NCBI GenBank assembly: GCA_029779845.1
Contig: JAKOZT010000032.1
Location: 1 to 64,000, forward strand
Direction of reading: 5' to 3'
From: Pseudomonadota bacterium
Lineage (GTDB): Bacteria; Pseudomonadota; Gammaproteobacteria; Burkholderiales; Burkholderiaceae_C
DNA: 64,000 nt
Positions 46,327 to 60,952 of the stretch are shown here, one piece after another. The notes below the pieces were generated by a model. It was given only the letters and a program-made list of their open reading frames with translations. It was not told the DNA's origin and ran no database searches. Both the position numbers and the translations under genes were made by a program. The number at the start of each line of letters is the position of its first letter. The first letter of the stretch is position 1.

Positions 46327-48318
46327 ATGGGCGCTTCCGCACTGATGTCGCTGGGCATGCGCGCGATGAGCGCGAACTACGCCGCGCTGCAGGCCGTCGG
46401 CCACAACATCGCCAACGCCAACACCGTGGGCTACTCGCGCCAGAGCGTGGTGCTGGAGACCAACGGCGGGCAGTTCACCGGCGCGGGCTTCTTCGGCAAG
46501 GGCGTCAACGTCGCCACGGTGCAGCGCGAGCACAGCGACTTCCTCACCCGCGAGGCGGCCACCACCAAGGCGGTGGCCGCCGCCGACGAGGCGCGCAGCA
46601 GCCAGCTGACGCAGCTGGAGAAGGTGTTCCCGCTCGGCGAGTCGGGCCTGGGCTATGCCGCCACGCAGATGTTCAACGCGCTGGTCGACGTGGCCAACAA
46701 GCCCTCGGACACCTCGTCGCGCCAGGTGGTGCTGGCGCGCGCCGGCGAGTTCGCGAGCAAGATCAAGACCGCCGGCGAGCAGCTCGACACGCTGCAGCGC
46801 GGCGTCAGCGAGGAGCTGAAGGCCAACATCACGCAGGTCAACATGCTGGCCGCGCGCGTGGCCGAGCTGAACCAGAAGATCGCCTCGGCCAAGGGTTCGG
46901 GCCAGACGCCCAACGACCTGCTCGACCAGCGCGACCAGACCATCAGCGAGATCAGCCAGTACATCCAGGTGACCACCGTCGACGCGGGCGACGGCAGCAC
47001 CAGCCTGTTCATCGGCGGCGGCCAGAAGCTGGTGCTGGGCAACCAGGCCACCACGCTGGTGGCGGTGGCCGACCCCTACGACGTCTCCAAGCTGCAGCTG
47101 GGCGTCAACGACGGCGGCTCGCTGCGCATGCTGCCGCAGGGGCAGGTGAGCGGCGGCGCGATCGCCGGGCTGCTGCGCTTCCAGAACGAAGACCTGGCGA
47201 CCGCGCGCAACCAGCTCGGCCAGTTCGCCGCCGCGGTGGCCGGCGCCATCAACGAGCAGCAGGCGCTCGGCCTGGACGGCAGCCAGCCGCCCGGCAGCGG
47301 CGCGCCGCTGCTGGCCGTCGGCGCGCCGCGCGTGCTGCCGGCCGGCAGCAACAGCAGTGGCAGCACGGGCGTCTCGATCAGCGTCGCGGTGCCGAGCGAA
47401 CTGCAGGCGAGCGACTACGAACTGGTGGCCGACCCCGCGCTGCCGGCCGGCAGCTACACGCTGACGCGGCTGTCGGACGGCCTGTCGCAGACCGTCACCG
47501 ACGGCCAGGTGGTCGACGGCATGCTGATCGGCATCGGCACGCCCGCGCCGGCCGCCAACGACCGCTTCCTGCTGCAGCCGGTGGCGGCGGCGGCGAGCGG
47601 CGCCAAGCTGGCGATGGAGAACACGCGCGGCATCGCGGCGGCCTCGCCGGTGGCGGCGACCTTCGGCGTCGACAACGTCGGCACCGCGTCGGTCTCGGCG
47701 CTCAGCGCGACGGCGGTCGACGCGGCCGCCGCGCCGCTGACCGCGAGCATCGCCTTCACCGACGACAACGGCAGCTACACCTGGGAGCTGCGCGACGCCA
47801 GCAATGCGCTGGTGCGCAGCGGCACCGGCACCTGGACGGCCGGCGAGGCGATCCGCAGCGATGCCTGGACGCCCGCCACGCCGGGGCAGCGCTACGACTG
47901 GTCGCTGGAGCTGTCCGGCGTGCCGCGCAGCGGCGACACGCTGACGGTGGGCAACACGCCCTTCCCGGCCTCCGACAACGGCAACGCGAAGGCGATGATG
48001 GCCTTGCGCGACGCCGGCCTGATCGGCCAGCGCACCTTGACCAGCGGCACCGTGGTGCCCGGCGCCAGCGTCACCGACGCCTACGCCAACCTGCTCGCCG
48101 ACGTGGGCGTGCGGGTGCAGGGCGCGGCGCTGTCGGCCAAGCAGTCGGCCTCGATCGCCGACCAGGCCGAGGCCGATCTGCAATCCAAGGTCGGCGTCAA
48201 CCTCGACGAAGAAGCCGCGCGGCTGATTCAGTTCCAGCAGAGCTACCAGGCCGCGGCCAAGATGCTTCAAGTGGCGCAGTCGCTGTTCGACACGCTCCTG
48301 CAAACCGCCGGCGCCTGA
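46327..48318 (+). CDS. flgK: Hook-associated protein FlgK
   Basis: MRAMSANYAALQAVGHNIANANTVGYSRQSVVLET; C-terminal EEAARLIQFQQSYQAAAKMLQVAQSLFDTLL. Confidence 0.96.
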   Translation: MGASALMSLGMRAMSANYAALQAVGHNIANANTVGYSRQSVVLETNGGQFTGAGFFGKGVNVATVQREHSDFLTREAATTKAVAAADEARSSQLTQLEKVFPLGESGLGYAATQMFNALVDVANKPSDTSSRQVVLARAGEFASKIKTAGEQLDTLQRGVSEELKANITQVNMLAARVAELNQKIASAKGSGQTPNDLLDQRDQTISEISQYIQVTTVDAGDGSTSLFIGGGQKLVLGNQATTLVAVADPYDVSKLQLGVNDGGSLRMLPQGQVSGGAIAGLLRFQNEDLATARNQLGQFAAAVAGAINEQQALGLDGSQPPGSGAPLLAVGAPRVLPAGSNSSGSTGVSISVAVPSELQASDYELVADPALPAGSYTLTRLSDGLSQTVTDGQVVDGMLIGIGTPAPAANDRFLLQPVAAAASGAKLAMENTRGIAAASPVAATFGVDNVGTASVSALSATAVDAAAAPLTASIAFTDDNGSYTWELRDASNALVRSGTGTWTAGEAIRSDAWTPATPGQRYDWSLELSGVPRSGDTLTVGNTPFPASDNGNAKAMMALRDAGLIGQRTLTSGTVVPGASVTDAYANLLADVGVRVQGAALSAKQSASIADQAEADLQSKVGVNLDEEAARLIQFQQSYQAAAKMLQVAQSLFDTLLQTAGA

Positions 48319-48332
48319 AAAGGAAACACGAC

Positions 48333-49535
48333 ATGAGCCTACGCATCAGCACCTTGCGCCAGACCGAGGCCGGCATCTCCACCTTGCAGAAGCGCCAGGT
48401 CGAGATGGCCGAATCGCAGGAGCGCCTGACCAGCGGCAAGCGCGTGCTCAAGGCGAGCGACGACCCGGCCGCCGCGGCGCGCGCCGAGCGGGCGCTGGCC
48501 GGGGAGATGCGCGCCACGACCAGCCAGCGCGCGGTGGACGCGAGCCGCTCCGCGATGTCGCTGTCGGAAACGGCGATGGGCGATTCGCTCGAACTGCTGC
48601 AGCAGGCGCGCGAGGCGATGGTGGCGGCCGGCAACGCCTCGTACAGCGACCAGGAACGCCAGAACCTGGCCGAGAAGATCAAGGCCATCCGCAACCAGCT
48701 GCTGAGCGTGGCCAACCGCACCGACGGCGCCGGCAGCTACCTCTTCGGCGGCCAGGGCGCGACCACGCAGCCCTTCGTCGACGCGGCCGGCGGCGTGGCC
48801 TACCGCGGCATCAGCGGCGAGCGCCGCACCGAGATGGGCACCGACCTGCCGCTGACCGTCAACGGCGACGGTGTCTTCATGACCGCGCGCAGCGGCAACG
48901 GCGTGTTCAAGACCAGCGCCGATGCGGGCGTGAGCAAGGCCTGGATCGACAACGGCCAGGTCAGCGACCCCGCCGCGCTGACCGGCTCGACCTACACGCT
49001 GCAGTTCGCCGTCTCCGGCGGCAACACCACCTACGCGGTGCTGAAGGACGGCGTGGCGACGGCCGTGACCGCCGCGCCCTACACCTCGGGCCAGGACATC
49101 ACCGTCGACGGCATGACCTTCCGCATCAGCGGCGCGCCGGCCGCGGGCGACAGCTTCACGGTCGAGCCCTCGGCCTCGTCGCTGTCGATCTTCGACGCGC
49201 TCGACCGCGCCGCCGCGCAGCTCGCCACCGGCGGGCGCACCTCGGCGCAGATCGCCCAGGGCAACACCGACGCGCTGCGCGACATCGACCAGGCGATGGC
49301 GCAGATGCAGGGCGCGCGCGCGGTGGCCGGCGAGATGCTCGCGCGCATCGAGGGCGAGACCTCGCGGCTGGCCGACCAGAAGCTCTCGGCGCAGACGGAG
49401 CGCAGCAATGCGGAAGATTTGGACATGACCGAGGCCTTGTCGAAGTTCGCCAACATGCAAACCGGCTACGATGCCGCGCTGAAGTCGTACTCGATGGTGC
49501 AGCGCCTGTCGCTGTTCGATTACGTCAAAGGCTAG
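48333..49535 (+). CDS. flgL: Hook-associated protein FlgL
   Basis: MSLRISTLRQTEAGISTLQKRQVEMAESQERLTSGKRVLKASDDPAAAARAERA. Confidence 0.95.
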   Translation: MSLRISTLRQTEAGISTLQKRQVEMAESQERLTSGKRVLKASDDPAAAARAERALAGEMRATTSQRAVDASRSAMSLSETAMGDSLELLQQAREAMVAAGNASYSDQERQNLAEKIKAIRNQLLSVANRTDGAGSYLFGGQGATTQPFVDAAGGVAYRGISGERRTEMGTDLPLTVNGDGVFMTARSGNGVFKTSADAGVSKAWIDNGQVSDPAALTGSTYTLQFAVSGGNTTYAVLKDGVATAVTAAPYTSGQDITVDGMTFRISGAPAAGDSFTVEPSASSLSIFDALDRAAAQLATGGRTSAQIAQGNTDALRDIDQAMAQMQGARAVAGEMLARIEGETSRLADQKLSAQTERSNAEDLDMTEALSKFANMQTGYDAALKSYSMVQRLSLFDYVKG

Positions 49536-49553
49536 CGCCAACAGGCCCTTCTC

Positions 49554-50753
49554 ATGCTCGACGTCGCGATCCTCGGCCAGGTGGCCTTCGGCTACTCGCC
49601 CTACATCGCCCGCAACCGCTCGGTCTCGGCGACGCGGCTGACGGTGTTCCCGCTCAGGCCCGACATGGCGCCCGACGCGGCGCAGCTGCTCGAGGCGATC
49701 GCCGGCGTCTGGCCGGCCGGCGGCGCGAAGGTGTCTCTCAACGTCGCGGGCGAATCGCTGCTGCAGGAGCTGATGCAGGCGCAGCCGGCCGGCAACGTGA
49801 TGGTCGAGATCCCGGCCTTCATGGCCTGCGACCCGGCCAACACCGCGGCCATCGTCGCGCTGCGCGCGCACGGCAACGAGCTGCTGCTCAAGGGCCGGCC
49901 GCTCGCGGAGCTGCCGCGCGAGGTGCTGCCCTGCTTCAAGTACTCGATCATCGACCTGGCCGACGACCGCCGCCTCGACGGCACGCAGCCGCCGCCGGGC
50001 GTGACGCGCAGCATCCCGCACCTGCAGGCCGGCGTGCGCACCATCGCCGAGATGGAGCAGGCCTTCGCGCGCGGCGCCGAGGCGGTGCTGGGCTGGCCGA
50101 TCGACGACGTGATCCAGGGCGGCGGCGGCAAGGCCAACGCCGGCCAGGCCGACATGCAGACGATGGTCGAGCTGATCCGCCAGGTCGACGCGGCCGAGCC
50201 GATCGAGAAGCTGGAGAACACGCTCAAGCGCGACCCCTCGCTGGCCTTCAAGCTGATGCGCTACATCAACTCGCCGGCCTTCGGGCTGCGCGTCGAGATC
50301 AGCTCGTTCCGCCACGCCATCATGATGCTGGGCTACAAGCGCCTGAAGCGCTGGCTGGCGCTGCTGCTGGCCACCGCGAGCAAGGACGTCAACATGAAGC
50401 CGGTGATGTTCGCCGCCGTGCGCCGCGGCCTGCTGATGGAAGAGCTCGGCCGCGCCAGCAGCGACGAGGAGATGCGCAGCGAGCTGTTCATCTGCGGCGT
50501 GTTCTCGCTGCTCGACCGCATGTTCCACCAGCCCTTCAGCGACCTGCTCGCGAACATCCCGGTGCCCGACCGCGTCTACCAGGCGCTCGCGAAGGAGACG
50601 GGCCCGTTCCAGCCCTACGTGAACATGGTGCGCGCGATCGAGGCCGGCTCGCTGTTCGACTTCCGCGAAGCCGCCGACGCGCTGATGCTCGGCGTCAGCG
50701 AGGTCAACCGCGCGCAGCTGCGCGCGCTCACCGCGGCATCCCAGCTGGAATGA
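49554..50753 (+). CDS. EAL-like/HDOD (YuxH-type) signalling protein
   Basis: Degenerate EAL-like N-terminus and C-terminal HDOD (LKRDPSLAFKLMRYINSPAFGLRVEISSFRHAIMMLGYKRLKRWLALLL). Confidence 0.85.
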   Translation: MLDVAILGQVAFGYSPYIARNRSVSATRLTVFPLRPDMAPDAAQLLEAIAGVWPAGGAKVSLNVAGESLLQELMQAQPAGNVMVEIPAFMACDPANTAAIVALRAHGNELLLKGRPLAELPREVLPCFKYSIIDLADDRRLDGTQPPPGVTRSIPHLQAGVRTIAEMEQAFARGAEAVLGWPIDDVIQGGGGKANAGQADMQTMVELIRQVDAAEPIEKLENTLKRDPSLAFKLMRYINSPAFGLRVEISSFRHAIMMLGYKRLKRWLALLLATASKDVNMKPVMFAAVRRGLLMEELGRASSDEEMRSELFICGVFSLLDRMFHQPFSDLLANIPVPDRVYQALAKETGPFQPYVNMVRAIEAGSLFDFREAADALMLGVSEVNRAQLRALTAASQLE

Positions 50754-53700
50754 CGGGCATGCCGGCGCACGCGCTGCCGGAGGCCTTGCGCATCGTCTGG
50801 GATGCGCCCTTTCCCGCGCTGCTGGAAGACGAGGGCTTCCGCCTCGTCGACGTCAACGAGGCCTTTCTCGATTTCACGGGCCGCACGCGCGACGAGCTGA
50901 TCGGCCGCGACGCCGTCGAGCTGGAGCCGCCCGAAGACCAGAGCGCCAGCCGCGCCGCGCGCAGTGCCCCGGCCGGCGCGCTGTTCGAGCGCCGCTTGGT
51001 CGACGTGGCCGGCCACGAGCGCTGGTACCGCGCGACGCGCCGGCGTGTCGGCGATGGCCTGCACCTGGTGCTGATGCAGGACTCCAGCGCCGAGCACGCC
51101 GCGCGCGAACGCGCCGACCGCTCGGCGCGCGAACTCGATCACTGGTTCGACCTCAGCACCGTCGGCATGGTGCTGTTCGACGAACGCGGCCTGCTGGTGC
51201 GCAGCAACCCGGCCTTCGAGGCGCTGGTGGGCAGCGTGCCGGTGACGCTGGGCGCGGCCGGCGAGCCGCTGTCCGAACTGCTGTGCTGGCAGGGCGACGC
51301 GGTGCTGAGCGCATTGCGCCCCGGCGCGCCGCCGATCGAGCGCCAGGTGTGGATGCCGCGCGCCGACGCCGCGCCGCTGCGGCTGCGCTCCATCGTGCGC
51401 TGCTACAAGGCGCCGGGCGGCGCGCCGCGCTTCATGGCGGTGGTGGAGGATCGCAGCGTCGAGGAGGAGCGCGACCTCGCGCAGATCCAGATCGGCGCGA
51501 TGATGGACACCGCCGGCGTCGGCCTGGCCACCTTCGCCGAATCGCACGGCTGGGTGCGCCAGCGCCAGTCGGTGGGCAGCGGCGGCGGCTCGCCCTCGGC
51601 CCTGCAGGCGATCGGGCGCGACGTGGTGCTGCCCGACTCCATCCCCGAATACGAGCGGCTGCAGCAGGCGCTGCGCCGGGGCGAGCGCGCCGAGGTGCGC
51701 TACGCGGTGCGCCACCCGGAGCTGGGCCAGCGCTGGCTGCTGACGCGCGTCGAGCCGGCGATGCTGGCCTCGGGCAAGCGCACCACCTCGGTGGTGACGC
51801 TGGACGTCACCGAGCAGGAGCAGGCGCGCTCGCGCAGCGAGGAGCTGCTGCGCGAGATGAGCAGCATCCTGGAGAGCACGGTCACCGGCATCGCGCACCT
51901 GCGCGGCGAGCACCTGGTGCGCTGCAACCACCGCTTCGAGCGCATGCTGGGCCTGCCGGCCGGCGTGGCGGCGGGGCGCTCGCTGGCCGAGCTGTTCGCC
52001 GCCCATCCGCGCGTGCTGGAGATCGCCGGGCAGGCGCAGCGCACGCTCGCGCCCGGCGCGGCGATGGAGGCCGAGTTCGACTTCGCGCCGCCCGGCCACC
52101 CGACGCTGTGGTACGCGCTGTCGGTGCGGCGCGGCGAGGGGCCGGCCGGCGCGGTCGAGCTGATCGCGGTGCTGTCCGACATCACACGGCTGAAACTGCA
52201 GCAGACCGAGCTGGAGCTGGCCGCGCGCGACCGCGAGCTGATGTTCAGCCTCTCGGAGGTGGGCATCGCCGCGGTGCGCGACGGCCGCATCCAGCGCGCC
52301 AACGACGCGCTCGCGCAGCTGGCCGGCTGGCCGGCCGCCGATCTCGCCGGGCTGACGCTGTCGACGCTGTACGCCGACCCGGCCGACTACGCGCGCCGCT
52401 GGCCGCAGCAGGAGCGCGAGCTGGCCGCGCAGGGGCGCTGGAGCGGCGAGCTGCAGCTGCGGCAGCGCGACGGCGCGCTGCTGTGGGTGCAGCTCGGGCT
52501 GCGCCTGGTGCAGCCGGGCGACCTGTCGGCCGGCTTCATCGCCAGCTTCGTCAACGTCGATGCGCGCCATCGCGCCGAGCTGGCGGTGGCGCTGCAGGCC
52601 GAGCGCACGCGCGCCATCCTCGACTCGGTGCTGGTGGGCATCGTCACCGTCGGCGCGAGCGGCATCGAGTGGATGAACCGCTCGGCGCGGCGCATGTTCG
52701 GCGGCGACCTGGCCGACTTCCTGAACCAGCCGATCTCGACGGTGGCCACGCCCGAGCCCGCCCACCCGTTCCGCCGCACGCACTACCTGCAGGAGCTGGC
52801 CGAAGGCCAGGCCGAGACCTTCGAGTGCCGCGTCAAGGCGCGCGACGGGCGCGAGTTCTGGGTGGTCGGCAACGCGGTGGCGACCAGCCGCGAATCGACC
52901 GGGCGCCAGCTCACCTACGCGCTGCTGGACATCGAGCGGCGCCGCCAGGCCGAGGCGCGCATGTCGGAGGCGCAGGCGTCCTTGCAGCGCATCATCGAGG
53001 CCGCGCCGATGGCGATCTCGCTGCACGACGCGCGCACGCTGAAGATCCTGCAGGCCAACCGGGTGGCGGCGCGCAGCGTGCGCCGCGAGCCCGAGCAATT
53101 GATCGGCCTGCTGCCCGAGCAGGTGCTCGATGCGGCGCTGGCCGCGCAGCGCCGCGCCGACATGGAGGCGGCGCTGGCCTCGCGCGAGCTGACGCAGCGC
53201 GAGTACCGCGTCGAGCACGACGGCGCCGCGATGGTGTGGGACGCGCGCTACCTGCCGCTGGCCACCCAGCCCGGCCAGGCGCCCGACCAGCTGCTGCTGG
53301 TGGCCACCGACGTCACCGAGCAGCGCGCCGCGCAGGAGGCTCGCTTCGAGGCGGCGATCGCGCAGCGCGAGATGCTGGTCAAGGAAGTGCACCACCGCAT
53401 CAAGAACAACCTGCAGGGCGTGGCCGGTCTTCTTCAGCAGATCGCCCAGCGCAAGCCCGAGGTGGCCGGCGTGATGTCGGAGGTGATCGGCCAGGTGCAG
53501 GCGATCGCGCAGGTGTACGGGCTGCAGGTCGGCGCCGGCGGGCCGCTGCGCGTGGCCAGCGTGGTGGAGGCGATCGCCGGCTCGGTGCAGCGCACCTTCG
53601 GCCGCACGATCCGCTTCGAGCTCAGCGGCCCGGCGCCGGCGCGCTGGGCGCTGCCGGAGGCCGAGTCGATCCCGATCGCGCTGACCGTCAACGAGCTGCT

Positions 53701-53974
53701 GACCAACGCCGTCAAGCACAGCGCCGGCGCCGAGGTGGGCTGCACGCTGGCGTGCGACGAGCACGGCGTGCTGCTGGCGATCGTCAACGCCGGCCGGCTG
53801 CCCGAGGGCTTCAACCTCGCGCGCGTGCCGGGCGGCGTCTCCGGGCTCGGGCTGGTGCGCGCGCTGCTGCCGCGGCGCAGCGCCACGCTGACCATCGAGC
53901 CGCAGGGCGAGCAGGTGCGCGCCAGCGTGACGCTGTCGCCGCCATGCATCACGCGGCTGGACGACCCCGCATGA
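50750..53974 (+). CDS. Multi-PAS sensor histidine kinase, HisKA_2/HWE-like
   Basis: Several PAS repeats, MLVKEVHHRIKNNLQGVAGLLQQIA, ALTVNELLTNAVKHS; ATGA overlap with the HDOD gene. Confidence 0.9.
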   Translation: MTGMPAHALPEALRIVWDAPFPALLEDEGFRLVDVNEAFLDFTGRTRDELIGRDAVELEPPEDQSASRAARSAPAGALFERRLVDVAGHERWYRATRRRVGDGLHLVLMQDSSAEHAARERADRSARELDHWFDLSTVGMVLFDERGLLVRSNPAFEALVGSVPVTLGAAGEPLSELLCWQGDAVLSALRPGAPPIERQVWMPRADAAPLRLRSIVRCYKAPGGAPRFMAVVEDRSVEEERDLAQIQIGAMMDTAGVGLATFAESHGWVRQRQSVGSGGGSPSALQAIGRDVVLPDSIPEYERLQQALRRGERAEVRYAVRHPELGQRWLLTRVEPAMLASGKRTTSVVTLDVTEQEQARSRSEELLREMSSILESTVTGIAHLRGEHLVRCNHRFERMLGLPAGVAAGRSLAELFAAHPRVLEIAGQAQRTLAPGAAMEAEFDFAPPGHPTLWYALSVRRGEGPAGAVELIAVLSDITRLKLQQTELELAARDRELMFSLSEVGIAAVRDGRIQRANDALAQLAGWPAADLAGLTLSTLYADPADYARRWPQQERELAAQGRWSGELQLRQRDGALLWVQLGLRLVQPGDLSAGFIASFVNVDARHRAELAVALQAERTRAILDSVLVGIVTVGASGIEWMNRSARRMFGGDLADFLNQPISTVATPEPAHPFRRTHYLQELAEGQAETFECRVKARDGREFWVVGNAVATSRESTGRQLTYALLDIERRRQAEARMSEAQASLQRIIEAAPMAISLHDARTLKILQANRVAARSVRREPEQLIGLLPEQVLDAALAAQRRADMEAALASRELTQREYRVEHDGAAMVWDARYLPLATQPGQAPDQLLLVATDVTEQRAAQEARFEAAIAQREMLVKEVHHRIKNNLQGVAGLLQQIAQRKPEVAGVMSEVIGQVQAIAQVYGLQVGAGGPLRVASVVEAIAGSVQRTFGRTIRFELSGPAPARWALPEAESIPIALTVNELLTNAVKHSAGAEVGCTLACDEHGVLLAIVNAGRLPEGFNLARVPGGVSGLGLVRALLPRRSATLTIEPQGEQVRASVTLSPPCITRLDDPA

Positions 53975-54066
53975 CGGTGGCCTGACGAGCGCCTGAGGAC
54001 GGCTCATTTCGCGGACAATCCGGGTCGGCTCCGATCAGGAGAGGCAAGAAGCGCAAAGAGGCTTCG

Positions 54067-54675
54067 GTGAACACGACGGGCAAGGGCACGATCCTCGTGG
54101 TGGACGACGACCGGCTGGTGCTGGCCACGCTGGCGCACGGCCTGGCGCAGGCCGGCTACGCCGTGCTCGACGCCGACAACGGCAACGACGCCATCCTGCT
54201 GGCGCACCAGCACCGGCCCGAGCTCGCGCTGCTCGACATCCGCATGGAAGGCATGAGCGGCTTCGACGTGGCCGAGACGCTGCGCGACAAGTACCGCATC
54301 CCCTTCATGTTCCTCTCGGCCTTCTCCGACGACGCCACGGTCGCGCAGGTGAAGGCGCTGGGCGCGGTGGCCTACCTGGTCAAACCGCTGGACATCCGCC
54401 AGATCGTGCCGGCGGTGGAGGCGGCGCTGGCCAACGTCGGCGCGCGCCGCGCCGCGCCGGCGGCATCCGCGCCTGCCGTGGCGCCGGCCCCCGCGCCGGC
54501 GCTGGACCCGACGGTCGCGATGGCCGTCGGCGTGCTGATGCACCGCTATTCGCTGCCGCGCGGCGCGGCGCTGGAGCGCCTGAAGCGCCAGGCCGAGAGC
54601 GAGCAGCGCGCGCTGGCCGAGCAGGCCGAGCGCTTGCTGCAGGCGGTCGAGCTGCTGTCCGATCCGGGGAGCTGA
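54067..54675 (+). CDS. Response regulator with C-terminal ANTAR (RNA-binding antiterminator) domain
   Basis: REC (ILVVDDDRLVLATL...LLDIRMEGMSG) + ANTAR-like AVGVLMHRYSLPRGAALERLKRQAESEQRALAEQAERLLQAVELL. Encoded start is GTG/ATG-proximal. Confidence 0.82.
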   Translation: MNTTGKGTILVVDDDRLVLATLAHGLAQAGYAVLDADNGNDAILLAHQHRPELALLDIRMEGMSGFDVAETLRDKYRIPFMFLSAFSDDATVAQVKALGAVAYLVKPLDIRQIVPAVEAALANVGARRAAPAASAPAVAPAPAPALDPTVAMAVGVLMHRYSLPRGAALERLKRQAESEQRALAEQAERLLQAVELLSDPGS

Positions 54676-54681
54676 CGGACT

Positions 54682-55830
54682 TCAGGGCGGCGGCAGCGAG
54701 AAGTGGAAGCTCGCGCCGCGCTCCACTTCCGCTTCCGCCCACACCTCGCCGCCATGACGGCGCACGATGCGCCGCACCGTCGCCAGGCCGATGCCGGTGC
54801 CGGGGAAGTCGCTCGCGCTGTGCAGGCGCTGGAACACGCCGAACAGGCGATCGGCGAAGCGCATGTCGAAGCCGGCGCCGTTGTCGCGCACCGTGTAGGT
54901 GTCGGGATGCTGCGGCCGGCGCTCCAGCCAGATCTCGGGCGCGCGCGCCTTGCCGGTGTATTTCCAGGCGTTGCCGAGCAGGTTCTCCAGCACCAGGCGC
55001 AGCAGCGTCGGGTCGCCCGAGACCTGCAGGCCCGGCTCGATGTGCAAGGCCACCTCGCGGCCGGGCGACTGGCGGCGCAGGTCCTCGGCCACGTAGGCGG
55101 CCAGCTGCGAGAGATTGACCGGCTGGCGTTGCAGCGGCTGCGTCGACAGCCGCGACAGCGCCAGCAGCGCGTCGATCATCGCGTTCATGCGCGCGGCGGC
55201 GCCGAGCACGCGGTCGAGGTGGTCGTTGCCGATGCGATCCAGGCTGGCGCCGTAGTCCTCCTTGAGGATCTTGGTGAAGCCCTCGACCACGCGGATCGGC
55301 GCGCGCAGGTCGTGCGAGACGGTGTAGCCGAAGGATTCGCGCTCGGCGGCGTCGGCCTGCGCATCGGCGGCCGGCGCGGGGAGCCGATCGTCGAGCACGC
55401 GCAGCGTGCCGGCGTAGCCGTCGAAGCGGCCGGCCGCGTCGCCGACCGGCCGGCCGCGCAGCAGCGCGCGGCGCGAAGGCTCGTCGGGTGCCGCCGCGAA
55501 GCGGCCTTCCACGTCGTGCAGCGCTGCGCCCGCATCGAGCTGCTGGCGCAGCGCCTGCGGCGCCGCGAAGGCGATGCGCTCGGCCAGCGGCGTGCCGGCC
55601 GCCAGCGGCGGTGTGTCGCAGCCGGCTGGTGCGCGCAGCCAGCGCAGGCGGTGCTCGGCGTCGCTGCGCCACTGCCACACGTCGAGCTGCTCGCTCAACT
55701 GGCGCAGCTCTTCGCGCGCGCGGCGCAGCTCGTCGCGGACCCGCGCGTGGCGCCGCGCCAGCACGGCGGCGATCAGGGCGCCGGCCAGCAGCGAAGGCAG
55801 GACGATGGCCCAGAGGGTCAGCGCGGACAT
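54682..55830 (-). CDS. Sensor histidine kinase
   Basis: N-terminal TM, ESFGYTVSHDLRAPIRVVEGFTKIL, FPGTGIGLATVRRIVRRHGGEVWAE; start trimmed to ATG 55830. Confidence 0.9.
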   Translation of the reverse strand: MSALTLWAIVLPSLLAGALIAAVLARRHARVRDELRRAREELRQLSEQLDVWQWRSDAEHRLRWLRAPAGCDTPPLAAGTPLAERIAFAAPQALRQQLDAGAALHDVEGRFAAAPDEPSRRALLRGRPVGDAAGRFDGYAGTLRVLDDRLPAPAADAQADAAERESFGYTVSHDLRAPIRVVEGFTKILKEDYGASLDRIGNDHLDRVLGAAARMNAMIDALLALSRLSTQPLQRQPVNLSQLAAYVAEDLRRQSPGREVALHIEPGLQVSGDPTLLRLVLENLLGNAWKYTGKARAPEIWLERRPQHPDTYTVRDNGAGFDMRFADRLFGVFQRLHSASDFPGTGIGLATVRRIVRRHGGEVWAEAEVERGASFHFSLPPP

Positions 55831-55880
55831 GCGCGCGATTGTAGGGAGAGCCCTCGCGCCCGCCTGCCCGCAGGCGCGGT

Positions 55881-55907
55881 TCAAGTTCGGGGCCTGTGCG
55901 CCGAAGA
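55881..55907 (+). promoter_or_regulatory. Putative sigma-28 promoter upstream of Hpt / REC-GGDEF-EAL / GGDEF genes
   Basis: TCAAGTTC-N11-GCCGAAGA (TCAA-N15-GCCGAAGA), 50 bp upstream of ATG 55958. Confidence 0.65.
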
Positions 55908-55957
55908 CAGCGAGATGTCGCGCACGGCCCACGCACGCGGTCCCGCGATCACGCCCG

Positions 55958-57067
55958 ATGCTGTTCCGTTCTTCCCGAATCCTGTTCTGGATCGCTGCCG
56001 CCGCGGCGCTCACCGCGCTGGCCGGCCCGGCGCGCCTCGCCACCGCGCTCACCGCCGTGGCCGGGGTGGCGCTGCTGGGCGCCTATGCGCTGGCGCGCTG
56101 GGCGCTGCAACGCGAGCGCGATGTGGCCGCGTCCGATGACGGTGCCGTGACGGCCGCGCTGGATGCGGCGGCGCTGGCCGAGATCGGCGAGCGCCTGCGT
56201 GCGGCCGTGACCGCCGCCGCCGGCGAGGGCGCCGAAGCGGCCGCGCGGGCCGCCGCCACCGTGCTGCGCGCCGAACTCGGCGCGCGCCAGGCCACGGTGC
56301 ACCGCGTGCGCGAGATCGCGCCGCCGTTCGTGACGCTGGTCACGCTCGCGCCCGATGGCGGTGCAGGCGTCGAGCACCGCGTGCGCCTGGAGCGCTCGCC
56401 GCTCGGCGTGGCGCTGCGCGACGGCCGCCCGGCGCGCGGCGCGGCCGGCGACTGGGCCGTTCCGGTCCATGCCGGCGAACGCTGCGCCGCGCTGATCGAA
56501 CTCGGGCCGCCCGCCCTCCAGGCCGACGAGGCCGGGCTGGCGGATCTGTTCGGCGCGCTGCGTGACATCCTGCCGCTCGATGATGCGTCCGGCGCCACCC
56601 CCACTGCACGCCAGGCCGAGGGTTGTGAAAGACAATACCTGCGAACCAGCGTCGACCCGGATTCCTTGACTGCCTGCGCCGTGCCCGATCTGCCGACCCG
56701 TCCGACCGCGCCCACCGTGCTCGATGCGCAGGCGCTCGGACGGTTGCGCGAGCTCGATCCGAAGGGCGAGAGCCAGCTGATCGAGCGCGTGCTGCGCGCC
56801 TTCGAGACCTCGGCGACGCGGCTGCTGCCCCAGCTCGAGGCGGCGCGCGCCGGCGGCGACCGCAACGGCGTGCGCCACGTGGCGCACACGCTCAAGTCGT
56901 CCTCGGCCAGCATCGGCGCGCTGGCGCTGTCGCAGCATTGCGCGGCGGTCGAGGCGATCGTCCGCGAGGAGCGCGCCGACGACCTCGAAGCGCCGCTCGA
57001 TGCGCTGCTGGCCGAACTGGCCGCGGTGCGGCAGGCGATCCGCGCCATGCTCGGCGAGGGCGCATGA
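55958..57067 (+). CDS. Membrane protein with GAF-like region and C-terminal Hpt domain
   Basis: Two TM helices at N-terminus; Hpt motif HVAHTLKSSSASIGALALSQHC. Confidence 0.82.
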   Translation: MLFRSSRILFWIAAAAALTALAGPARLATALTAVAGVALLGAYALARWALQRERDVAASDDGAVTAALDAAALAEIGERLRAAVTAAAGEGAEAAARAAATVLRAELGARQATVHRVREIAPPFVTLVTLAPDGGAGVEHRVRLERSPLGVALRDGRPARGAAGDWAVPVHAGERCAALIELGPPALQADEAGLADLFGALRDILPLDDASGATPTARQAEGCERQYLRTSVDPDSLTACAVPDLPTRPTAPTVLDAQALGRLRELDPKGESQLIERVLRAFETSATRLLPQLEAARAGGDRNGVRHVAHTLKSSSASIGALALSQHCAAVEAIVREERADDLEAPLDALLAELAAVRQAIRAMLGEGA

Positions 57068-59313
57068 ACCCGACGCTGATGCCCCAGGACGACGATCTGC
57101 CCGGGCAGCCGAAGGTGCTGCTGGTCGACGACGACGAGGTCAACCTGCTGCTGACCTCGATCGCGCTGCGCGAGCGCGGCTTCGAGATCACCGAGGCCAC
57201 CGGCGGCGAGCAGGCGATGCGCGCGCTTACCGAGTGGCTGCCCGACGTGGTGGTGCTCGACGCGCTGATGCCCGGCATCGACGGCTTCGAGACCTGCCGC
57301 CAGCTGCGCCACCTGCCCGGCTTCGAATCGCTGCCGGTGCTGATGCTGACCGGCCTGGACGACGACGCCTCGATCACGCGCGCCTACGAGGCCGGCGCGA
57401 CCGACTTCTTCGTCAAGTCGACCCAGTGGAGCCTGCTGGCCGGGCGGCTGCGCTACCTGCTGCGCTCGGCGCGCACGCGCCAGGAGCTGGAGCGCAACAA
57501 GGCGCGCCTGGCGCGCGCGCAGGACCTGGCGCGCATGGGCAGCTTCGACTGGAAGCGCGGCGACGGCGGGCCGGTGTTCTCCGCCGAGGGCCTGCGCGTG
57601 TTCGGCCTCGCGCCCGACCAGACGCTGCCCTTCCGCACGCTGCTGCGCATGCTGCCCGACGTCGAGCGCGACGGCCTGATCACCGTGCTGCGCGAGGTCA
57701 TCCGGCACAGCTCGGTGCTGGCGCGCGACGTCACCGTCACGCTGCTCGACGGCCGCCAGCGCATCGTGCACGTCGAGGCCGAGCCGGAGTTCAACGAGCA
57801 CGGCAACCTGATCGGCTACACCGGCATCGTGCAGGACGTGACCGACCGCCGCGTCGCCGAGGACAAGATCAAGCACCTGGCCAACTTCGACGGCCTGACC
57901 GGCCTGCCGAACCGCCGCCAGCTGATCTGGCGCACCGAGCGCGCGCTGGAGCACGCGCGCCGCCTCGGCCACCAGGTGGCGCTGCTGCTGATCGACCTGG
58001 ACCGCTTCAAGGTGATCAACGACACGCTCGGCCACGGCGCCGGCGACGAGCTGCTGATGGAGGTGTCGCGGCGGCTGCGCTCGTGCGTGCGCCACTCCGA
58101 CCAGGTGATGGAAAGCTCGCTCGAGGCGATGGGCTCGCGCTCGCATCGCACGCTGGAGGCGGTGGGGCGGCTCGGCGGCGACGAGTTCGTCGCGCTGCTG
58201 CCCGAGGTGGCCGACGAGCGCGACGCCGAGCGCGTCGCGCGCCGCATCCTCGACCTGATGCGCGAGCCGATCTTCGTCGGCGGGCAGGAGTGCTTCGTCA
58301 CCGCCAGCGTCGGCATCGCGCTGTACCCGCGCGACGGCGCGACGATGGCCGACGTGCTGCGCAACGCCGACGTGGCGATGTACGCCGTCAAGTCGAGCGG
58401 CCGCAACGCCCAGCAGCTGTATTCGCCGATGCTCGCCGGCAAGGGCCGCGAGAAGCTCGCGCTCGAGACCGACCTGCACAAGGCGCTGGAGCGCGAGGAG
58501 CTGGTGCTGCACTACCAGCCCAAGATCGACGTGCGCAGCGCGCGCATGGTTGGCGCCGAGGCGCTGATGCGCTGGCGCCGCGGCGGCGAGCTGGTGCCGC
58601 CGGGCGACTTCATCCCCCTGGCCGAGGAAACCGGCCTGATCAACCCGTTCTCCGAATGGGCGATCCGCGAGGCGGCGCGCCAGGCGCGCGTCTGGCAGGA
58701 CAGCTTCGGCTTCGCCGAGTCGATCGCCGTCAACCTGCCGAGCCGGCTGTTCGAGCGCACCGATCTCGTCGAGCACATCCACGACGCGGTCAGCGCCTAC
58801 GGCGTGCCGCACCACGCGATCCAGCTCGAGATCACCGAGACGGGCCTGATGAAGGAACTGCAGAGCGTGATCCCGTCGCTGCACCGGCTCAACGAGATCG
58901 GCGTCGAGATCTCGATCGACGACTTCGGCACCGGTTATTCCTCGCTCGCCTACCTGACCACGCTGCCGATCTCCGAGCTGAAGATCGACCGCAGCTTCGT
59001 GCGCGACCTCGGCCTGACGCCGGCCAGCAGCGCGATCGTCAAGGCCATCATCTCGCTGGCGCGCGCGCTCGGCCTGCGCGTCATCGCCGAAGGCGTCGAG
59101 AGCCTGCGCCAGATGGAGGCCTTGCACAAGGAAGGCTGCTGGCTGATGCAGGGTTATTTGTTCAGCCGCCCGCAGCCGGCCGACGACATCGAGGCCTGGC
59201 TGCAGCAGACCGTGCTGCCGCGCAAGGCGCCGTGGATCGGCAAGGTCGGCGAGGCCGACCTGCTCTCCGACGCGCTGCGCCCGGCCGGCGTGCGCAGCAA
59301 GCCGGCCGGCTGA
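57064..59313 (+). CDS. REC-PAS-GGDEF-EAL response regulator
   Basis: VLLVDDDEVNLLLTSIALRERG, RLGGDEFVALLP, GAEALMRW, DDFGTGYSSLAYL; ATGA overlap with upstream Hpt gene. Confidence 0.94.
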   Translation: MNPTLMPQDDDLPGQPKVLLVDDDEVNLLLTSIALRERGFEITEATGGEQAMRALTEWLPDVVVLDALMPGIDGFETCRQLRHLPGFESLPVLMLTGLDDDASITRAYEAGATDFFVKSTQWSLLAGRLRYLLRSARTRQELERNKARLARAQDLARMGSFDWKRGDGGPVFSAEGLRVFGLAPDQTLPFRTLLRMLPDVERDGLITVLREVIRHSSVLARDVTVTLLDGRQRIVHVEAEPEFNEHGNLIGYTGIVQDVTDRRVAEDKIKHLANFDGLTGLPNRRQLIWRTERALEHARRLGHQVALLLIDLDRFKVINDTLGHGAGDELLMEVSRRLRSCVRHSDQVMESSLEAMGSRSHRTLEAVGRLGGDEFVALLPEVADERDAERVARRILDLMREPIFVGGQECFVTASVGIALYPRDGATMADVLRNADVAMYAVKSSGRNAQQLYSPMLAGKGREKLALETDLHKALEREELVLHYQPKIDVRSARMVGAEALMRWRRGGELVPPGDFIPLAEETGLINPFSEWAIREAARQARVWQDSFGFAESIAVNLPSRLFERTDLVEHIHDAVSAYGVPHHAIQLEITETGLMKELQSVIPSLHRLNEIGVEISIDDFGTGYSSLAYLTTLPISELKIDRSFVRDLGLTPASSAIVKAIISLARALGLRVIAEGVESLRQMEALHKEGCWLMQGYLFSRPQPADDIEAWLQQTVLPRKAPWIGKVGEADLLSDALRPAGVRSKPAG

Positions 59314-59335: not shown

Positions 59336-60952
59336 ATGGACACCACCCCGGCGCAGATCGCCAAGGCCGCGCTGCGCCGCCTGGCGCTCGACAAGCTCGA
59401 GCCGACGCCCGACAACTACGCGCGTGCCTACGCGCAGGAATCCGGCGAAGCGGCGGCGAGCAGCGCTGGGGACGGCGCGGCGCTCGCCACGCTGATCGGC
59501 AAGCTGGTGCGCGGCGTCGAGCGCGGCGGCCGGCACTGGACCGCGGCGCGCCGCAAGGACAGCCTGCAGCGCGTGCTCGAAGGCAGCCGCAGCGACGCCA
59601 AGCGGTTGCAGCAGCGCCTGACGCAACTGGCCGCGAGCTGGGATTCCGACACCCCCGACGGCGCGGTCGAGACCGAGCCGGCGCCGCTGGACGCACTCCC
59701 GCCGGCCGCCGCCGCGCCTGCCACGGCGATGGAAGCGCCGATTTCCCTGAACCTCGCCGGCGAGCGCCCCTGGGGCCGCATCGTCGACACGCTGGGCGGC
59801 ACCACGCGGCGCGCGCTGCCTTCGCAGGACGAAGCGGCCGAGCTGTCGAACGCGCTCGGCGCGCTGGTCGAGCGCGTTGCGCGCGAAGGCGCCTCGGCGC
59901 CGCTGGCCGAGGAACTCGACGCGCTGTGCGCGCGCGCCGGCATCGTGCTGCAGCACCGCCATCACCTCGTCGACCAGCTCGGCGCCTTGTGCCAGGAATT
60001 GACCGCGAGCCTGACCGACCTCGCCGAGGACGACAGCTGGGCCCGCGGCCAGTGCGACGCGATGCGCGTCAAGCTCGACGAGGGCCTGACCGCGCGCGGC
60101 GTGAAGGCCGTGAGCGAGCTGCTGCGCGACACGCGCGAGCGCCAGGGCGCGCTGCGCGCCGAGCGCGAGAAGGCGCGCGAAGCGCTCAAGACGCTGATCA
60201 ACCGCATGCTGAGTGAACTGGGCGAACTCGGCTCGCAGACCGGCCGCTTCCACGAGAGCGTGGGGCGCTATGCCGACGTGATCGAGAAGGCCGATTCGCT
60301 GGAGAGCCTGGCCGGCGTGGTGCGCGAGATGGTCGAGGAAAGCCGCACCGTGCAGGCGCTGGTGCAGCAGACGCAGGGCCGCCTGCAGGAGGAGCACGCG
60401 CGCGCCAGCGAGCTGACGGCGCGCGTGGGCGAACTGGAAGGCGAGCTGCGCCGCCTGTCGAACGAGGTCTCGACCGACCAGCTGACGCAGATCGCGAATC
60501 GCCGCGGGCTGTTGCAGGCCTTCGATGCCGAGCGCTCGCGCGTCGAGCGCGAAGGCGCTGTGCTGGCCGTGGGCCTGCTCGACATCGACAACTTCAAGCG
60601 CCTGAACGACGAACTCGGCCACGCCGCCGGCGATGAAGCGCTGCGCTCGCTGGCCGCGGTGGTGAGCAAGACGCTGCGCCCGAGCGACATGGTGGCGCGC
60701 TACGGCGGCGAGGAATTCGTGGTGCTGCTGCCGGCCACGCCGGTGGACGAGGGCCAGCAGATCCTGACGCGGCTGCAGCGCTCGCTGTCGGGCGGCCTGT
60801 TCATGCACGAGAACAAGCAGGTGTTCGTCACCTTCTCGGCCGGCGTCACCGCCTACCGCGCCGGCGAGCGCATCGAAGCGGCGCTGGAACGCGCCGACCA
60901 GGCGCTCTACGAGGCCAAGCGGACGGGCAAGAACCGGACGTGTATCGGGTGA
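59336..60952 (+). CDS. GGDEF diguanylate cyclase
   Basis: Long coiled N-terminus; RPSDMVARYGGEEFVVLLP (active GGEEF with RxxD five residues upstream). Confidence 0.94.
   Translation: MDTTPAQIAKAALRRLALDKLEPTPDNYARAYAQESGEAAASSAGDGAALATLIGKLVRGVERGGRHWTAARRKDSLQRVLEGSRSDAKRLQQRLTQLAASWDSDTPDGAVETEPAPLDALPPAAAAPATAMEAPISLNLAGERPWGRIVDTLGGTTRRALPSQDEAAELSNALGALVERVAREGASAPLAEELDALCARAGIVLQHRHHLVDQLGALCQELTASLTDLAEDDSWARGQCDAMRVKLDEGLTARGVKAVSELLRDTRERQGALRAEREKAREALKTLINRMLSELGELGSQTGRFHESVGRYADVIEKADSLESLAGVVREMVEESRTVQALVQQTQGRLQEEHARASELTARVGELEGELRRLSNEVSTDQLTQIANRRGLLQAFDAERSRVEREGAVLAVGLLDIDNFKRLNDELGHAAGDEALRSLAAVVSKTLRPSDMVARYGGEEFVVLLPATPVDEGQQILTRLQRSLSGGLFMHENKQVFVTFSAGVTAYRAGERIEAALERADQALYEAKRTGKNRTCIG

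Follow-up and report, generated by a model that had tools for sequence, protein, structure and literature searches.

The 64,000-nucleotide stretch of DNA analysed here (the window), from a Piscinibacter-like host of the Burkholderiales, carries downstream of the flagellar gene flgL a soluble HisKA_2 histidine kinase and a response regulator with a receiver (REC) domain and a C-terminal domain derived from ANTAR. It is assumed that ANTAR domains bind RNA, and proteins that carry them are annotated as antiterminators. The window regulator keeps the ANTAR fold with none of the RNA-contact residues of EutV, and it is linked to two kinases rather than one. The chances appear about even that these genes form a two-kinase module in which a repurposed, RNA-blind ANTAR output would work via protein contacts, probably near the control of cyclic di-GMP (c-di-GMP) or motility. 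The kinase and the regulator have the following coordinates in the window:

50750..53974, + strand, soluble multi-PAS HisKA_2 histidine kinase with H-box EVHHRIKNNLQ (Pfam HisKA_2 and PAS)
54067..54675, + strand, response regulator with REC and ANTAR-derived domains (Pfam REC and ANTAR; AlphaFold2; Foldseek)
54091..54417, + strand, receiver domain of the regulator, with D13/D14, D57, S84, and K106 intact (invariant in the orthologue alignment)
54430..54507, + strand, variable Pro/Ala linker where the ANTAR coiled coil would be (composition; predicted local distance difference test, pLDDT; ratio of nonsynonymous to synonymous substitution rates, dN/dS)
54508..54660, + strand, three-helix domain derived from ANTAR, with none of the 11 RNA contacts of EutV (alignment, constraint, AlphaFold2, entropy)

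The C-terminus of the regulator is homologous to ANTAR, both by descent and by fold. The initial annotation had called for profile confirmation of the ANTAR and HisKA_2 domains, and both scored above their cut-offs, ANTAR marginally so, at 27.9 bits against 27.3 over profile positions 12–54 of 54 (residues 149–191). The same profile (PF03861) was matched at E ≤ 0.01 by 36 of 36 aligned regulators, including L089, a member of a higher-scoring group discussed below. In a phmmer search of the PDB, the best full-length sequence match was Rv1626/PdtaR, aligned over regulator residues 9–193. The AlphaFold2 model of the regulator (mean pLDDT 79) has helices at residues 148–161, 165–178, and 183–198, with block scores of 87–95 across most of the ANTAR-derived domain, so that the fold expected at residues ~150–200 is present. 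Foldseek placed RNA-bound EutV at the top of the matches to this model, followed by EutV and Rv1626, with much of the score contributed by the receiver domain. The genome carries two ANTAR matches, that of the window regulator and a stronger one (84.6 bits) on contig C13, whose gene adjoins an nrtA-like gene and is taken as NasT.

Loss of the RNA-binding features is extensive. In the EutV–RNA structure the contacts are made by R142, K143, K147, K149, E160, Y164, R168, M172, N173, R175, and R177 (PMC8934654), and NasR R340, which is reported to be near-universal and essential (PMC7496416), is aligned here with EutV R142. The residues found at these positions in the window regulator are, in the same order, D, P, M, V, R, L, K, E, S, Q, and A. 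The loss extends across the clade of ~50 orthologues, in which K149 has become V, L, A, or I in 50 of 50 rows, E160 has become R in 49, and Y164 has become L in 37. Mean entropy in the orthologue alignment is 2.02 at RNA-face positions versus 1.25 elsewhere (permutation P ~0.02), the reverse of the pattern in 29 NasT domains (0.56 versus 1.33), which were picked by a pattern requiring K or R at 142, 143, and 149 that slightly favours conservation there. The coiled coil of ANTAR regulators is replaced by a Pro/Ala linker of variable length (mean 4.7 prolines, at least two in 47 of 50), which is predicted to be disordered, with pLDDT <50 at residues 127–142 of the model. Judged by its residues, the window regulator does not look able to bind RNA in the EutV manner.

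Other positions of the domain have been retained. A153, G155, M158, R160, A168, L172, A193, E195, and L197 show no variation in 50 rows, while H159, S162, L163, and R165 are nearly invariant. Since these invariant residues persist outside the RNA face, simple decay of the ANTAR-derived tail is unlikely. In the phylogenetic tree, 46 such regulators fall in one clade with support of 100/100, which takes in Piscinibacter, Rubrivivax, Roseateles, Mitsuaria, Pelomonas, Aquabacterium, Leptothrix, Ideonella, Methylibium, and Paucibacter, together with several unplaced metagenome bins from the Burkholderiales. Outside it lie the better-scoring regulators L043, L044, L046, L047, L050, and L089, which are mostly beside HisKA_2 kinases and may represent an intermediate group. 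Loss of the RNA contacts looks stepwise, because R142 and K149 are already missing from this outside group, which still has F164, R168, R175, and K/R177.

The initial annotation had proposed that the kinase–regulator pair controls motility or c-di-GMP transcripts by antitermination, a proposal left unsupported by the residue losses above and by a search for target RNAs, in which the sole hexaloop leader was that of the nas genes. An Rfam scan of the window gave no match, and a dual-hexaloop scan of both its strands gave three matches, none above chance (~1.9 were expected per strand), in agreement with the earlier remark that no RNA target is apparent there. The motif itself is detectable, as dual hexaloops with A1 and G4 sit downstream of nasT in several relatives. 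A covariance model was trained on eleven nas leaders, including that of the window's genome, and recovered untrained sites beside nasT in two further loci (L012 and L028). Across the genome this model found only the nas leader, a training sequence, convincingly, with the next match at 21.7 bits (E 0.5); the leader is assignable to NasT, and the suggested genome-wide search for the two-hexaloop motif thus yielded no site tied to the window regulator. The best match within the window (46456–46509, 16.6 bits) lies inside a flgK-like coding gene and was rejected. Models built from close RNAs can miss divergent ANTAR RNAs (PMC8164766), so these results count as supporting, not decisive, evidence against antitermination. 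Separately, the region between nasT and the nrtA-like gene (L001 1755–1850; G000 contig C13) has, besides a P1 hexaloop (AACGCC), a second and weaker hairpin as well as a hairpin resembling a terminator with a T run at its end, and is a likely NasT target.

In comparison with the output domain, the phosphorylation machinery appears intact. The kinase matches HisKA_2 at 36.1 bits (cut-off 22.3) together with several PAS domains, and its H-box (HHRIKNNLQ) and N-box (NELLTNAVKH) are conserved across 49 kinase cores. The REC domain of the regulator scores 86.7 bits, with its phosphoacceptor and active-site residues invariant in the orthologues. Because the receiver keeps its phosphorylation residues and the kinase its H-box and N-box, phosphotransfer from kinase to regulator is likely. 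The pairing of a HisKA_2 kinase with a regulator of REC-ANTAR fold, 3' of flgL, was borne out by Pfam, Foldseek, and synteny.

The genes around the kinase and regulator are as follows:

48333..49535, + strand, flgL, hook-filament junction protein (TIGR02550 full-length match at 48342–49526, 244 bits)
49554..50753, + strand, HDOD protein with an EAL-like N-terminal half and an HDOD C-terminal half (Pfam HDOD; Foldseek EAL folds)
54682..56052, − strand, convergent HisKA histidine kinase (Pfam HisKA 39.2 bits, HATPase_c 78.8 bits); probable start at 55830, the part before 55830 being unconserved
55958..57067, + strand, Hpt protein with a hydrophobic segment at its N-terminus and an inferred start (Pfam Hpt 54.8 bits)
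57064..59313, + strand, REC-PAS-GGDEF-EAL protein (Pfam EAL 232.9, GGDEF 158.3, and REC 81.5 bits)
59336..60952, + strand, GGDEF diguanylate cyclase (Pfam GGDEF 152.3 bits)

The HDOD, kinase, and regulator genes have the coordinates, order, and strand originally assigned to them, 3' of flgL (flgL stop at 49535, HDOD ATG at 49554), and had been described as a trio beside the flagellar operon. The adjacency to flgL is real; the trio as one functional unit is not, for two units are juxtaposed here. Synteny was compared over 48 loci, each ratio counting only loci with enough flank. The kinase precedes the regulator in 45 of 45 loci, the convergent HisKA kinase follows it in 45 of 46, flgL-HDOD lies upstream in 37 of 41, and the REC-PAS-GGDEF-EAL gene lies downstream in 30 of 32, usually accompanied by Hpt and diguanylate cyclase genes. 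Among 26 genomes, both kinases were found in 11 of the 11 with the regulator and in none of the 15 without it; a 38%-identical kinase in one genome (G008) is part of that genome's own canonical pair. Linkage this tight greatly exceeds what chance would give. Four well-flanked loci (L054, L057, L069, and L074), and a fifth with slightly less flank (L067), have these genes away from flgL, which in these genomes is found elsewhere with HDOD still next to it. An HDOD homologue follows flgL in 27 of 29 flgL loci of the family, including genomes without the kinases and regulator. The kinase, the regulator, and the convergent HisKA kinase are therefore a three-gene cassette, so far seen in a single clade centred on the Sphaerotilaceae and nowhere else, and flgL-HDOD is a separate, old pair. 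As HDOD is linked to flgL, and the kinases to the regulator, the trio of the initial annotation spans the junction of two units, and HDOD-kinase-regulator as a single unit was rejected.

The ATGA overlap of the HDOD and kinase genes (50750–50753), which had been read as part of this arrangement, does exist, but it is untypical among relatives, most of which have the HDOD stop separated from the conserved kinase region by 20–700 nt. The window kinase starts (50750–50780) without a ~120-amino-acid N-terminal stretch, PAS-like by eye, of its near relatives L034, L037, and L033, in which this extra stretch fills that gap.

The HDOD domain of the window protein scores 49.5 bits against a cut-off of 22.9, and PF08668 was matched by 29 of 29 orthologues. 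The label EAL originally given to this gene holds for the fold and not for the sequence. Its N-terminal half has EAL proteins as best Foldseek matches (E 1.7e-5), among them STM1697 of the STM1697-FlhD complex; the EAL motif is absent, PF00563 (EAL) found no match in the 29 orthologues, and an active EAL phosphodiesterase was accordingly rejected. The window's genome encodes FlhD. HDOD proteins are known to affect motility, as with Xanthomonas GsmR, Campylobacter Cj0248, and Pseudomonas SadB (PMC11004494, PMC6543031), and a role of the HDOD gene in flagellar control, independent of the kinase pair, is plausible. The order of flgL followed by an EAL-fold/HDOD gene (window 48333–50753; L133–L171) persists down to ~27% identity, marking the gene as a long-standing neighbour of flagellar genes that has no named function; no report of this linkage was found in the open-access literature, most subscription journals being outside the search. 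In one genome (G029; L179, C13:303000–320000), flgL-HDOD runs directly into Hpt, REC-GGDEF-EAL, and diguanylate cyclase genes with no cassette, which is either the older gene order or the result of a clean loss.

Taken together, a mechanism may be proposed in which one or both kinases would phosphorylate the intact receiver domain of the regulator, and the former ANTAR output domain, devoid of its RNA contacts and coiled coil, would act through protein–protein contact, not antitermination. Protein contact is the most likely output because the RNA face has been lost while the fold and other positions have been kept. The partner may belong to c-di-GMP or motility control, a weaker suggestion that comes from the position of the cassette between flgL-HDOD and the Hpt, REC-GGDEF-EAL, and diguanylate cyclase genes. 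The broader version, in which the ANTAR domain of the whole clade turned from an RNA binder into a protein-interaction output common to two kinase types and feeding c-di-GMP/flagellar control, is proposed tentatively, at somewhat less than an even chance. Several points weigh against these proposals. The partner protein is putative, the cognate pairing of kinase and regulator is deduced from adjacency, and synteny conserved within a single clade of relatives says less about function than independent linkages would. The residues are also compatible with some other mode of RNA binding, and the rough median pairwise dN/dS of the ANTAR-derived domain, ~0.54, compared with 0.21 for REC and 0.92 for the linker, is compatible with partial decay.

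It is unlikely, although conceivable, that the regulator binds RNA with changed specificity and acts on flagellar or c-di-GMP transcripts by EutV-like antitermination or by sequestration. ANTAR homology and fold, the RNA-binding function of the nearest solved full-length relatives, a mean net domain charge slightly above zero (+1.3), and the known evasiveness of divergent ANTAR RNAs (PMC8164766) would suit such a regulator, but it would have to bind with all EutV contacts and the coiled coil lost, with contact positions free to vary, and in a genome whose only hexaloop leader belongs to nas. A comparably low probability attaches to a vestigial tail, in which case REC by itself would shuttle phosphate, or act as a sink for it, between the kinases on one side and the nearby Hpt and REC-GGDEF-EAL proteins on the other. 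The strong constraint on REC, the faster evolution of the tail, and the proximity of those genes fit this scheme; against it, across ~50 orthologues the tail has retained its predicted fold along with many invariant residues, while the adjoining linker drifts freely. The cassette might instead be a hitchhiker at this site, unrelated to motility or c-di-GMP, which is compatible with either of these alternatives and is likewise improbable. It occurs without flgL-HDOD in the four well-flanked loci, flgL-HDOD occurs without it in most of the family, and in G029 the flanking genes stand together in its absence, yet REC-GGDEF-EAL stays near it even in loci away from flgL, and flgL is present in 12 of 12 sampled genomes with the regulator. 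A regulator acting through protein contacts is preferred to all three.

If this is correct, the antiterminator annotation would fail for the whole group, which would hold a constrained, clade-wide ANTAR domain without RNA contacts, and a two-kinase module would be added to the flagellar/c-di-GMP neighbourhood of the Sphaerotilaceae. No report of a degenerate or RNA-blind ANTAR domain was found in the open-access literature, with most subscription journals outside the search.

The closest known parallels are other kinases paired with REC-ANTAR regulators. EutW of Enterococcus faecalis is a HisKA_2 kinase acting with the REC-ANTAR regulator EutV, the top structural match of the window regulator; unlike it, EutV has both a coiled coil and RNA contacts. 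PdtaS/PdtaR (Rv1626) of Mycobacterium tuberculosis similarly joins a soluble kinase to a REC-ANTAR regulator, but the input of PdtaS is GAF-PAS and PdtaR is an RNA binder (PMC8131098), whereas the window kinase has PAS only and its regulator keeps none of the RNA-contact residues. The outside group of Burkholderiales regulators (L043, L044, L046, L047, L050, and L089) is 40–44% identical to the window regulator, and differs in its ANTAR scores of 46–50 bits, its retained coiled coil and F164, R168, R175, and K/R177, and its location away from flgL. A further parallel lies in the reuse of the fold itself. In PhyR of the general stress response of Alphaproteobacteria, a fold of a nucleic-acid-binding type is reused for protein contact under the control of HisKA_2/HWE-type kinases. 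Partner switching is noted for PhyR (PMC5964349). The domain that PhyR uses is sigma-like and not homologous to the ANTAR-derived output, making this an analogy and not a membership. The ANTAR fold would then be reusable as a protein switch, just as the sigma-like domain is in PhyR.

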